A DNA stretch of 64,000 nt from Rudaeicoccus suwonensis (GTDB lineage: Bacteria > Actinomycetota > Actinomycetes > Actinomycetales > Dermatophilaceae), in contig NZ_VIVQ01000002.1 in the NCBI RefSeq assembly GCF_007829035.1, forward strand, positions 372,001 through 436,000, in the 5' to 3' direction. The position numbers and the translations under genes are program-made. Below the pieces are notes generated by a model that saw nothing but the letters and a program-made list of their open reading frames with translations, searched no databases and had not been told where the DNA came from. Below, one piece after another: positions 34,983 through 46,301 of this stretch; positions within the stretch are counted from its first letter, which is position 1; the number at the start of each line of letters is the position of its first letter.

Positions 34983-37900
34983 CTAGAAGTTTTGAGCCAT
35001 ATTCGTGAAGCGACTGTAGTGACCCTGGAACGCGACGGTGATCGTGTCAGTGGGGCCGTTTCGGTGCTTGGCCACGATCAAATCTGCCTCGCCCGCACGC
35101 TCGGACTCTCGGTCGTAGGAATCTTCACGATGCAGCAGGATCACCATGTCGGCATCCTGCTCGATGCTGTTGTGCGCAGCGATGCCGTTGGCGATGAAAT
35201 TGTGCGACCCGACCACCGTGGCGTCGAAGACTTCCTCGATCCCGTCGACCTCAATCGACACCACGGTGTCCCAGAAGATGTCGTTGACGCAGAGGAGTTC
35301 CAACTCCGCACTGTCGAGCACCTGTGCGACTTGGCCGAGACGCTCGCGCGACGGCGAATGCTTCCACAAGGCCGACCCGCAAAACTGCGTTCCCATCGCG
35401 GCGGCGAACTCACGATGCGTCATACCTCGCTCGGCCATGACGCCCTTGACCGTGTCCCACACCTGGGTCGGCACGGTGTCGACATTGGTGTTGGCGGTGA
35501 CCTCACGAACGATCGCGAGCAACCGAGCGGCATTCTGCGCACGGTCACCAAAGACACCGATCTCCTGAAGAAACCTGCGCTGGCTGTCGGCGCCAGAAAT
35601 GTCGATCGTGTAGCCGTCGCGGTAGCCCGCCTTGCGAGTCACCTTGGTGCGCGTCGAGATGCCGAAACGCAGCAGCAGCAGGCTCAGGTCGTCCACCAGC
35701 CGACGCGATGTGGACGCGTAGTAGATCCGACCGCCGCGGCCGGTCTTGTTCACCGTCACCGACCCGTCTGTCGCCCAGATGTGTTTGAGGAACAATGCGA
35801 TCTGCCTCTTTGAGGCGTGAAACAGCGATTCTGGAACGAACTTTTCGTGACTGCGCAAACCGAAAAGGCCCAACTCGTCCAGCCACTCGGCGATCGGGTT
35901 GCGCACCCCGTGGCCACGCTGGAACGGAGCTCGCAACCGCAGCGTCGACACCCGGGCGGCCGCATAGTCATCGCGCACCGCAGCGACTCCGAATCCGACC
36001 AACGCCGCCTTGGTCACAGCAGCGAGATTTTGTTCGTCGATGCTGGCGTAACGGATCGGCTGCCGTCGAACGAACGACCCGTCGCCGATCATGTGCGCCA
36101 GCAGGATCAGTTTCTCGTCCGAATCCCACGGCTCATGCAGCTGTGGCGCCGGCACGTGGCGTGGCACAGCAAGCCGCTCACCTGTGCGCAAATCGCCCAG
36201 TGCAGCCCACCCGCCATACGTGAGAAAGCGGTGATTCTCGGTGGCGCGCACCGTCTTGCCGGACGCCAGCGCCATCTTGAAAACCGGCCGCACCCCCGTG
36301 CGGAAGGCATGGGTCAGTGGGCGCACGACATACCGCAACGAGTCGTCCAGAGCCCAGATCGGCACCTCAGTCTCACCGGACGCCGCCAATTCGCCGATCG
36401 ACACCTCGGCACCGGTGTCCGCCCTCAACAATCGCGTGTCGGCAGTGAGGCAACCGGATTCGCGAAGGTCGGACATCTGCGGACGCTTGTCGGTGCGCTG
36501 CTCCGGACCACGGTTCAACTGCGAGATAGCGATGACCGGAACGTTGAGTTCCTTTGCGAGCAGCTTCAGCGCACGCGAGAATTCCGACACCTCCTGCTGA
36601 CGGGACTCCACGCGTTTTCCGGAGGTCATCAGCTGCAGGTAGTCGATGATGACGAGCTTGAGGTTGTTGCGCTCTTTGAGCCGCCGACACTTGGAGCGGA
36701 TCTCCATCAGCGACATGTTCGGCGAATCGTCAATGAACAGAGGCGCATCCGCGACTTTGCCCATCGTGGTCGCCAGTCTGGTCCAGTCTTCGTCGCGCAT
36801 CGTGCCCTTGCGCATGTGCTGCAATTGAATGCCACCTTCGGCGGACAAAAGGCGCATTGAAATTTCGGACTTGCTCATTTCGAGCGAGAAGATGGCGCTC
36901 GCCATACCTGCCTTGATCGAGCACGCACGCGCAATGTCGAGGCCGATCGTCGAGTTGTGGGTCGGGATCATCGCCCGGCTCGCGAGATACAGATGCGAGT
37001 CGTTGTCGACCTGCACGCAACGCACCGGCACCGACGGAATCGGCCGGACGTCGACGATGAATTGCGAGTTGCGGCGCTGGAAGGTGCGCGAACGCAATTC
37101 TTTGTGCAGCAGCTTCTTCCGGTCGAGCCAGAAGACATCTTCGTCCGTCGAGAACGTCATTGTGTACGCCGTCGACGACTCCTCCGAGCGCCCGTTGACC
37201 CGCTTTCGCGAGGCACCGAACCGCAGCCCCAAGGACGCCAAGAGGTCCTGCACATCATCACGAAGCCGCGGACTCGTGGTTGTGAACTGCACGCAGCCAC
37301 TCGCGGTCACTGTGCCGTCCGTATCCAGCAGACCGGCAAGCAGCGCCCACCGCTGATCGGCACTGGCGCGCAGGTACGACACCGGTATGTGCTTGTTGCC
37401 GAGCACCCCAAGCGTCCGCAGCCGCCCCCGCACCGAGCCGTGCCGGTCGTGGCACGCCTGGCATCGACGCATCCCGGACGAGGGCGCGCCGCAGTCAGGG
37501 CAGCTGGGTGCGACGGCGTACCCGATCCCCTTTGCCCGTCCGCCACAGCTGCGACCACATGTGCGCACCTGAGAGGTCTGAGGGACGAAGTCCGCACCAC
37601 AGACGACGCAAAGCCGTGACGCGACTGCCTCGGTGGGAAGTCGCAGGGAGTACCTCATCGTCGCCTTGGTCTTGGTGACCCTGACGCCCTGGCTCTCCAA
37701 CAACATGACCATCTGGTCATCGGCACTGGTGATCGTCGCCTGGTCGGTCGTGCCGTCCCCGAGCCATGCCCCGAGAACATATGGCGGCACCAGCGCGTCA
37801 ATCTGCGGCAACTGCAACGGCTCGGTCAACCGGACGCTGTGATTGAGCCGGGCCTCCTTGGTGCTCGTGCGGAGGGTGGCTGCGATTTCGGCGGTCGTGC

Positions 37901-38879
37901 GAACGGCGGGCTTGATCCGCTGCGTCCTAACGCTCGCCAGGCTGCAGCGAGCTTGTTGTTCGGACCGTCTGCTGGCCCGGGTATCCGTCAGCCACTGATG
38001 CTGCTCGTCAGCGACGATCACGGTGCCATCCGCGAATTCGACCTCGTAGCAAGGGCGCTCGTGCATCACGTCGGTCGCGGCGACTACGGTCGTCGGGCGT
38101 CCATCGGCTCCGATCAGCTGGTCGCCGACGTGCACGTCACCCATGGTCGTCCAACCCGTGGGCGTCGGGAGCGGGGTGTCCAGCGCGAGGGCCTTGCCGA
38201 CGGCAGGCCTCGCCGCAATGACAATCATCTGTCCCGGGTGCAAACCGTTGGTCAATGTGTCCAAATCCGTGAATCCGGTCGGCACACCGGTCATTTGACC
38301 GTTGTTGCCACTGGCGGCATCGATCTCGTCGGCGGTCTCGGCGATGATGTCGCCGAGCCGGACGTAGTCCTCGGTCTCCTTGCCGGCCGTCACTCCGAAG
38401 ATCTCGGCTTGCGCCGCGTTGATGACGTCGACAACGTCGCCGCCGCCGTCGGCATACCCCATCTGCACGATGCGGGTGCCGGCGTCGACGAGCCGGCGCA
38501 GCACAGCACGCTCGGCGACGATCTCGGCGTAGAAACCGGCGTTCGCCGCGGTCGGAACGCCCTGGATCAGCTCGTGCAGGTAGGCCTGCCCGCCGACACG
38601 CTGAAGCTCACCGCGTTTGGTGAGCTCGTCGGCGACGGTGATCGCGTCAGCGGGCTCGCCGCGGCCGTAGAGGTCGATGATCGCTTCGTAGATGAGTTCG
38701 TGGGCCGGCCGGTAAAAGTCGCGGCCGTCGACAGACTCCGTCGCTGCAGCGATCGCATCCTTGGACAGCAGCATCCCGCCGAGCACGGACTGCTCTGCCT
38801 GGACGTCCTGCGGGGGCAGCATGCCACCTCCGCGGCGGCTGTCGTCCTCGTAGTCGCCGGGGAACTCAGCGATCGCCAC
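34983..38879 (-). CDS. dnaB: replicative DNA helicase DnaB containing two inteins
   Basis: A 1298-aa precursor. The extein parts total about 457 aa, the normal DnaB length: N-terminal domain (PPQDVQAEQSVLGGMLLSKD), RecA-like ATPase with Walker A ARPAVGK-S split by intein 1, Walker B LVIIDYLQLM, and SDLRESG-SIEQDAD split by intein 2. After splicing it unwinds DNA at the replication fork. GTG 38879 was chosen because AGGAGG lies 6 bases upstream and the usual VAIAEFPGDY start follows. The long upstream gap contains a DnaA-box array. The gene is isolated from rplI by secreted-protein genes and a MATE exporter. Confidence 0.95.
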   Translation of the reverse strand: MAIAEFPGDYEDDSRRGGGMLPPQDVQAEQSVLGGMLLSKDAIAAATESVDGRDFYRPAHELIYEAIIDLYGRGEPADAITVADELTKRGELQRVGGQAYLHELIQGVPTAANAGFYAEIVAERAVLRRLVDAGTRIVQMGYADGGGDVVDVINAAQAEIFGVTAGKETEDYVRLGDIIAETADEIDAASGNNGQMTGVPTGFTDLDTLTNGLHPGQMIVIAARPAVGKALALDTPLPTPTGWTTMGDVHVGDQLIGADGRPTTVVAATDVMHERPCYEVEFADGTVIVADEQHQWLTDTRASRRSEQQARCSLASVRTQRIKPAVRTTAEIAATLRTSTKEARLNHSVRLTEPLQLPQIDALVPPYVLGAWLGDGTTDQATITSADDQMVMLLESQGVRVTKTKATMRYSLRLPTEAVASRLCVVCGADFVPQTSQVRTCGRSCGGRAKGIGYAVAPSCPDCGAPSSGMRRCQACHDRHGSVRGRLRTLGVLGNKHIPVSYLRASADQRWALLAGLLDTDGTVTASGCVQFTTTSPRLRDDVQDLLASLGLRFGASRKRVNGRSEESSTAYTMTFSTDEDVFWLDRKKLLHKELRSRTFQRRNSQFIVDVRPIPSVPVRCVQVDNDSHLYLASRAMIPTHNSTIGLDIARACSIKAGMASAIFSLEMSKSEISMRLLSAEGGIQLQHMRKGTMRDEDWTRLATTMGKVADAPLFIDDSPNMSLMEIRSKCRRLKERNNLKLVIIDYLQLMTSGKRVESRQQEVSEFSRALKLLAKELNVPVIAISQLNRGPEQRTDKRPQMSDLRESGCLTADTRLLRADTGAEVSIGELAASGETEVPIWALDDSLRYVVRPLTHAFRTGVRPVFKMALASGKTVRATENHRFLTYGGWAALGDLRTGERLAVPRHVPAPQLHEPWDSDEKLILLAHMIGDGSFVRRQPIRYASIDEQNLAAVTKAALVGFGVAAVRDDYAAARVSTLRLRAPFQRGHGVRNPIAEWLDELGLFGLRSHEKFVPESLFHASKRQIALFLKHIWATDGSVTVNKTGRGGRIYYASTSRRLVDDLSLLLLRFGISTRTKVTRKAGYRDGYTIDISGADSQRRFLQEIGVFGDRAQNAARLLAIVREVTANTNVDTVPTQVWDTVKGVMAERGMTHREFAAAMGTQFCGSALWKHSPSRERLGQVAQVLDSAELELLCVNDIFWDTVVSIEVDGIEEVFDATVVGSHNFIANGIAAHNSIEQDADMVILLHREDSYDRESERAGEADLIVAKHRNGPTDTITVAFQGHYSRFTNMAQNF
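35169..36452 (-). other. DnaB intein 2 (428 aa), class 1
   Basis: Inserted after SDLRESG. It starts with Cys1 (CLTADTRLL), has the block B TxxH in RATENHRF and ends IAAHN before Ser+1, so standard class 1 splicing is expected. LAGLIDADG-type motifs are LLAHMIGDGSF and FLKHIWATDGSV. A helix-turn-helix-like stretch (MAERGMTHREFAAAMG) near the end may help the endonuclease bind DNA. Confidence 0.88.
36954..38192 (-). other. DnaB intein 1 (413 aa), class 3-like, in the Walker A loop
   Basis: Inserted between Lys and Ser of the P-loop. It begins with Ala (ALALDTPLPTPTGW), not Cys/Ser. It has the W-C-T set that defines class 3 inteins: Trp in DEQHQWLTD (intein residue 67), Cys in VRCVQVDND (392) and Thr in MIPTHN (411), then Asn413 and Ser+1. 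Two LAGLIDADG-type motifs (VLGAWLGDGTT and ALLAGLLDTDGTV) indicate a homing endonuclease. Between them lie four paired-cysteine knuckles (residues ~195-251). Confidence 0.85.
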
Positions 38880-39011
38880 GCATGCCCTCCTGGAGCCTGG
38901 ATTCGAACATGTGTCGATTGCATCACCAGGCACTGACAAGGCCACATCGACACCGAAAGCGCCACGCTAGATCCCGGCATCGCGACGCGCCAAACGTATG
39001 CCGCAGGGCCA

Positions 39012-39087
39012 TGTGGACAAGCTGCGGACAACGTGTGGACAGGTACCTCATGCAGTGTGCACACCCTGGGGACAATCCTGTGGATAG
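39012..39087. promoter_or_regulatory. array of DnaA-box-like 9-mers upstream of dnaB
   Basis: The 406-bp gap 38880-39285 has no gene. It contains TGTGGACAA (39012-39020, exact complement of the actinobacterial box TTGTCCACA), TGCGGACAA (39023), TGTGGACAG (39034), TGGGGACAA (39067) and TGTGGATAG (39079), all in one orientation at spacings of 11, 11, 33 and 12 bp. TTACCCACA at 39182-39190 is a further near match. DnaA control of dnaB, or DnaA titration, is inferred. Confidence 0.65.
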
Positions 39088-39285
39088 CGCGCGGCCGACT
39101 CGATGATGGGGTCGCTGACCTGCGGAAACACCATCCAATGAGTGTGGAGGAAAGAAACTTTGCCAGTCCGGCGGCCCGGAGTTACCCACAGGTCGTCCGG
39201 TCAATTGTCAAGTCACTCGTACCTGTCGGCGTGGCGCTGGACGCTCAGTTCACACCAGGTGTGTGGTGCCAGTTCGGTGCGTGGT

Positions 39286-46292: not shown

Positions 46293-46301
46293 TTATCCAC
46301 A
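46293..46301. promoter_or_regulatory. consensus DnaA box upstream of rpsF
   Basis: TTATCCACA matches the classical DnaA box exactly, 144 nt upstream of the rpsF ATG. It is a single site here. Confidence 0.5.

Follow-up and report, generated by a model that had tools for sequence, protein, structure and literature searches.

In the genome of Rudaeicoccus suwonensis, positions 38964–39190 of the window (the whole 64-kb stretch of DNA analysed here, C2:372001–436000) probably form a regulated promoter of the replicative helicase gene dnaB, most likely activated by a row of DnaA, so that helicase supply would follow active DnaA. The DnaA boxes of this array (C2:411012) are conserved among relatives in presence and orientation, lie on a helical lattice and keep a fixed register with a conserved promoter. 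Because the row stays in helical step with the promoter across many actinobacteria, the initiator probably controls the amount of helicase. The initial annotation had offered three options, i.e., DnaA control of helicase supply, a titration site or part of an origin-related region; the first fits best, considering the conserved phasing and the DnaA binding published for mycobacteria (available text of PMC7738170).

The Predicted dnaB Promoter and Its DnaA-Box Array

The GTG start codon of dnaB was placed at 38879 on the basis of an adjacent upstream AGGAGG and alignment with relatives, the closest named ones by DnaB being Flexivirga and Leekyejoonella. The number of inteins in dnaB varies among relatives, going by match lengths. 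A standard sigma-70 consensus scan found no dnaB promoter, and promoters of the TANNNT type are usually missed by such scans. The −10 element (Table 1) was predicted from its pattern and from conservation across relatives, and the same pattern places the predicted transcription start at about 38957. In most of the 81 loci for which a −10 candidate was identified, TTG-N17/18-TANNNT lies between the array and dnaB. The array begins directly upstream of the −35 element, and about 59 bp separate the centre of its nearest box from the predicted start. No RNA families were found in the 64-kb window.

Table 1. Features of the dnaB gene and its upstream region (window coordinates).
Feature	Position	Strand	Remarks
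dnaB, replicative helicase, two inteins	34983..38879	−	TIGR00665 DnaB, 509.9 bits (cut-off 385.25); NF005852, 1270.1 bits (NCBIfam)
Predicted −10, TAGCGT	38964..38969	−	TANNNT conserved in register with boxes, 81 non-redundant loci
Predicted −35, TTGGCG	38988..38993	−	Spacer 18; TTG at 17–18 nt from −10 seen in nearly all relatives
DnaA box TTGTCCACA	39012..39020	−	Exact actinobacterial box; lattice slot 4, 51 bp from −10
DnaA box TTGTCCGCA	39023..39031	−	Slot 5
DnaA box CTGTCCACA	39034..39042	−	Slot 6
Weak DnaA-box-like site GTGTGCACA	39056..39064	−	Two mismatches; slot 8, same 11-bp lattice
DnaA box TTGTCCCCA	39067..39075	−	Slot 9
DnaA box CTATCCACA	39079..39087	−	Slot 10
Conserved element GCAGGTC	39117..39123	−	154 bp from −10; in 28 loci
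Degenerate inverted half-box pair TCCAC-N5-TTGGA	39134..39148	−	TCCAC-N5-GTGGA in relatives
A/T-rich patch AAAGTTTCTTTC	39150..39161	−	Conserved in relatives by alignment
Outer box TTACCCACA	39182..39190	+	Opposite to array; same box and orientation in L013, L019, L048, L051 and others

As the initial annotation had described, five 9-mers, one of them exact, run in a single direction with start-to-start spacings of 11, 11, 33 and 12 bp; all five are on the minus strand and point to dnaB. The near match that it had listed at 39182 is also present, but on the opposite strand, and is kept in near relatives. The exact box TTGTCCACA is the high-affinity box given for M. tuberculosis and S. coelicolor (PMC4285127, Table 1). 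When strict boxes are defined as having at most one mismatch to TTGTCCACA or TTATCCACA, their background in the host genome is 0.13–0.16 per kb. A cluster scan covering 2.8 Mb (73%) of the 3.83-Mb genome ranked the dnaB region at the top, with six strict boxes in 200 bp, and oriC second, with four in its best 200 bp. The Poisson odds of four further same-strand boxes inside 76 bp are about 3e-11. Lone one-mismatch boxes occur in the window at the expected frequency (4 found vs. 3.84 expected), which indicates that the non-random part is the clustering.

Conservation and Helical Phasing Across Actinobacteria

The dnaB loci sampled were from the family and order of R. suwonensis together with named genomes of Dermatophilaceae, other Micrococcales, Nocardia, Rhodococcus, Mycobacterium and relatives, Actinomycetospora, and Quadrisphaera. 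Loci with dissimilar upstream sequence were kept as 86 non-redundant loci. Conservation of the array in relatives, which the initial annotation had proposed as a check, is evident: at least two strict boxes occur within 500 bp upstream of dnaB in 82 of the 86 loci, compared with 1% of dinucleotide shuffles, and the mean number of strict boxes in these 500 bp is 3.77 (shuffles 0.15). Control stretches gave 0.0 boxes in the first 500 bp of the dnaB gene body and a mean of 0.29 farther upstream. Across the 86 loci, 272 boxes are oriented with dnaB and 52 against it.

Kocuria rosea (L084) has no boxes upstream of dnaB, and no close box pair was found near dnaB in G054, G147, and G206, genomes that are called Streptomyces-like solely on the basis of 93–97% identity to an approximate Streptomyces-type DnaB query. 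G206 carries a single exact TTGTCCACA 403 bp from its DnaB match; of two Streptomyces-like genomes compared, it is the one with such an upstream box. The array is absent or reduced in these genomes and in one Kocuria, so the control does not extend to every member of the class.

Distances between boxes of the same direction show a period of about 10.75–11 bp (R = 0.72), and the boxes fit a lattice of about 10.95 bp in fixed register with the TTG-N17/18-TANNNT promoter. For box-to-(−10) distances, R is 0.82 (N = 238), and random promoter shifts applied per locus never exceeded 0.29, in phase statistics that ignore kinship among loci. The lattice distances are 39–40, 51–52, 61–62, 73, 84, 95, 106, 117, 128, and 171 bp. 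Slots 3–11 and 15 are occupied, slots 1–2 (the core promoter) are empty, and half-turn positions are essentially free of boxes. Slot 9 is the most occupied; in 57% of loci, slot 8 is filled by a site that matches at 7 or more of the 9 positions. The phase is the same in Dermatophilaceae/Micrococcales (R 0.84, phase 7.27) and in Mycobacteriales (R 0.83, phase 7.33). The helical phasing that the initial annotation had put forward against chance is thus real and conserved across relatives, and the lack of conservation that the annotation had named as refuting its reading was not seen. Several boxes, conservation in relatives and a fixed promoter geometry, by which a DnaA-regulated promoter is recognized, were all found at dnaB.

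Elements Upstream of the Array

In the group to which R. suwonensis belongs, the elements upstream of the array follow one order, namely the outer opposite box, the A/T patch, the inverted half-boxes, and GCAGGTC. In the 28 loci that contain it, GCAGGTC lies about 132, 143, 154, 165, or 176 bp from the −10 element, i.e., in whole-turn steps, with a best period that is loosely defined in this small set (R 0.77–0.80 for 10.9–11.5 bp). Since related promoters share history, this spacing serves as an independent argument: distances that vary by whole turns suggest that insertions and deletions relative to the promoter are tolerated mainly in whole helical turns, which shared ancestry alone would not explain. 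The exact palindrome TCCAC-N5-GTGGA was identified in 20 of 45 non-mycobacterial loci and in none of the shuffles.

Mycobacteriales have, in place of this module, two ACACGCC copies 26–27 bp apart, and at least one copy is present in 35 of 36 loci. In most of these loci (e.g., L064, L067, and L110) the copies keep fixed distances from the dnaB −10 element, one at about 188 bp and the other at about 214 bp. Their GACAC core resembles the motif of WhiA, a possible partner. Of 36 Mycobacteriales loci, 33 retain GACACGCC, but the group of R. suwonensis shows no conservation of GACAC, and a search of literature titles found no link between WhiA and dnaB.

It is conceivable, though on the unlikely side, that the whole region acts as a composite switch, in which a DnaA filament in promoter register would work with a second module (A/T patch, inverted half-boxes, and GCAGGTC) whole turns away. 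An actinobacterial partner protein, of whatever class, would load or reset DnaA there, and one site would both set helicase supply and feed back on initiation.

The Replication Origin and Other DnaA-Box Sites

Checked against the dnaA–dnaN gap and the GC-skew switch, the suggestion that the array lies in an origin-related region did not hold. The dnaA open frame is at C2:455435, followed by a box cluster at C2:459118–459700, with boxes from 459118 to 459563, and then dnaN, and cumulative GC skew reaches its minimum at 455 kb of C2. This cluster in the dnaA–dnaN gap is oriC, and its location 48 kb from the dnaB array, together with the skew minimum, indicates that the array is not the origin. 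The array region has an A+T content of 38.5% vs. 34.2% for the contig, with one 12-bp patch and no long A/T-rich stretch that could serve as an unwinding element. Translations inspected by eye suggest TetR-like and MFS-transporter-like genes between dnaA and the oriC boxes (C2:457012–459198).

At dnaA of the same genome, the predicted −10 element is at C2:455383, and boxes at 455426 and 455438 are downstream of the predicted start and reversed, a layout that suits the known self-repression of DnaA.

A third DnaA-box cluster, with three strict boxes and two TCCAC-N5-GTGGA palindromes, was found outside the window at C2:516829–516961, just downstream of crgA (517102–517578, minus strand; CrgA NCBIfam match below cut-off). 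Downstream of crgA, a similar palindrome also occurs in genome G008, at 82 bp, and in genome G022, at about 1 kb. We take Rv0011c of M. tuberculosis to be crgA, and on this assumption the cluster looks like the same site as the DnaA site Rv0010c–Rv0011c. The latter is under selection in drug-resistant strains and has no obvious counterpart elsewhere, according to the available text of PMC7738170. Same-direction pairs of DnaA-box-like 9-mers, 28–29 bp apart, occur at C1:187279, 576454, 917395, and 1687304 and at C2:267128 and 318822; some of these six pairs have similar flanks, as if they were parts of dispersed repeats.

The initial annotation had also pointed to an exact TTATCCACA at 46293 upstream of rpsF. 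This box exists but is isolated, and its membership in the system is unsupported: none of the 55 relatives for which sequence upstream of rpsF was available carries TTATCCACA there. A different site, TAGTCCACA, is located at −24/−26 before rpsF in 15 of the 55 loci (Nocardia and Rhodococcus; L044, L045, L060, L068, and others) and is perhaps shared by descent without functioning as a DnaA site.

Comparison With Known Systems

In M. tuberculosis, IDAP-seq with purified DnaA recovered five regions, one of them upstream of dnaB, and ChIP-seq in M. smegmatis located DnaA at homologous regions including that upstream of dnaB (available text of PMC7738170). The same text reports that the M. tuberculosis DnaA variant I282T binds less upstream of dnaB and uniquely under-expresses dnaB (PMC7738170); this under-expression could be indirect. 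The mycobacterial site (Rv0057/dnaB) is similar to that of the window in gene, initiator, and upstream position, and the Mycolicibacterium and Mycobacteroides loci have related boxes on the same lattice. It differs in that the window has more boxes and the GCAGGTC module, whereas Mycobacteriales have repeated ACACGCC. Box geometry, promoter register, and spread to other actinobacteria do not form part of the available text of PMC7738170. In the distant phylum of Caulobacter crescentus, dnaB belongs to the DnaA regulon, with predicted upstream boxes and expression that responds to DnaA (Hottes et al., 2005, as cited in the available text of PMC8203912 and PMC7738170); the comparison with the window covers the presence of DnaA boxes upstream of dnaB.

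Similar to the window array, datA, DARS, and other non-oriC clusters have several boxes outside oriC; these are able to modulate DnaA, as those of the array may also do. The known clusters lack a promoter tie in helical register. Autoregulation of dnaA likewise places boxes at a replication-gene promoter in this genome, although these are downstream of the predicted start and reversed. In the literature searched, which covered few subscription journals, we found no conserved phased geometry, multi-order spread, or extra elements of this kind. DnaA binding at dnaB is already known in mycobacteria, and the precise geometry appears to be previously undescribed.

Alternative Interpretations

The probability is negligible that the array is a random grouping where TCCACA-like words happen to be abundant. 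The frequency of one-mismatch boxes in the window is indeed that expected by chance, but clustering, orientation, phase, and conservation in relatives argue against this interpretation, the last having already refuted it. It is also highly improbable that the array belongs to the origin or serves as a second DNA-opening site. Unidirectional boxes with an 11-bp spacing occur in E. coli oriC as well, and there is a small A/T-rich patch at 39150; however, a separate oriC cluster occupies the dnaA–dnaN gap at the GC-skew minimum, and the modest A+T excess of the array region includes no long A/T-rich stretch.

A datA- or DARS-like site for titration or inactivation/reactivation of DnaA, for which the place before dnaB would be secondary, seems unlikely as the main role. 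Such a cluster near oriC would be copied soon after initiation and would then absorb or reset DnaA. The array is the densest box cluster in the part of the genome scanned and is 48 kb from oriC, and the inverted half-boxes and conserved GCAGGTC upstream would fit a structured nucleoprotein complex. Titration, however, does not need a constant helical register relative to the dnaB promoter, and this register is the strongest signal. In nearly all of the loci, the array is retained at dnaB. No IHF/Fis-type site was identified, although the conserved GCAGGTC may serve a helper protein. Titration is possible as a second role beside control of the dnaB promoter. We consider repression of dnaB from the array similarly unlikely. 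DnaA represses dnaA in many bacteria, and some relatives have a box adjoining the −35 element (distance 39–41 from −10), but the core promoter itself is free of boxes, and in M. tuberculosis the DnaA mutant that binds the site less has less dnaB mRNA rather than more (available text of PMC7738170). The location of the boxes upstream of, rather than over, the core promoter, the helical register, and these mycobacterial data together favour activation.

Proposed Mechanism and Implications

For the preferred activated dnaB promoter, we propose that DnaA binds head-to-tail on same-orientation boxes 11 bp, or one helical turn, apart. This one-turn spacing would place all protomers on one face of the DNA, directed at the promoter. 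DnaA would then presumably bind in R. suwonensis as an activator rather than a repressor, contacting RNA polymerase and most likely aiding it in starting dnaB transcription. The supply of DnaB would track the amount of active (ATP-)DnaA, which also fires oriC. The opposite layouts at dnaA and dnaB would allow DnaA to reduce its own production and at the same time to increase helicase synthesis.

Little is known of how actinobacteria, M. tuberculosis among them, match helicase supply to the time at which replication is initiated. The strict, conserved geometry between DnaA boxes and the dnaB promoter makes the link between supply and initiation directly testable, and the array provides a natural yardstick for the assembly of a DnaA row on double-stranded DNA.
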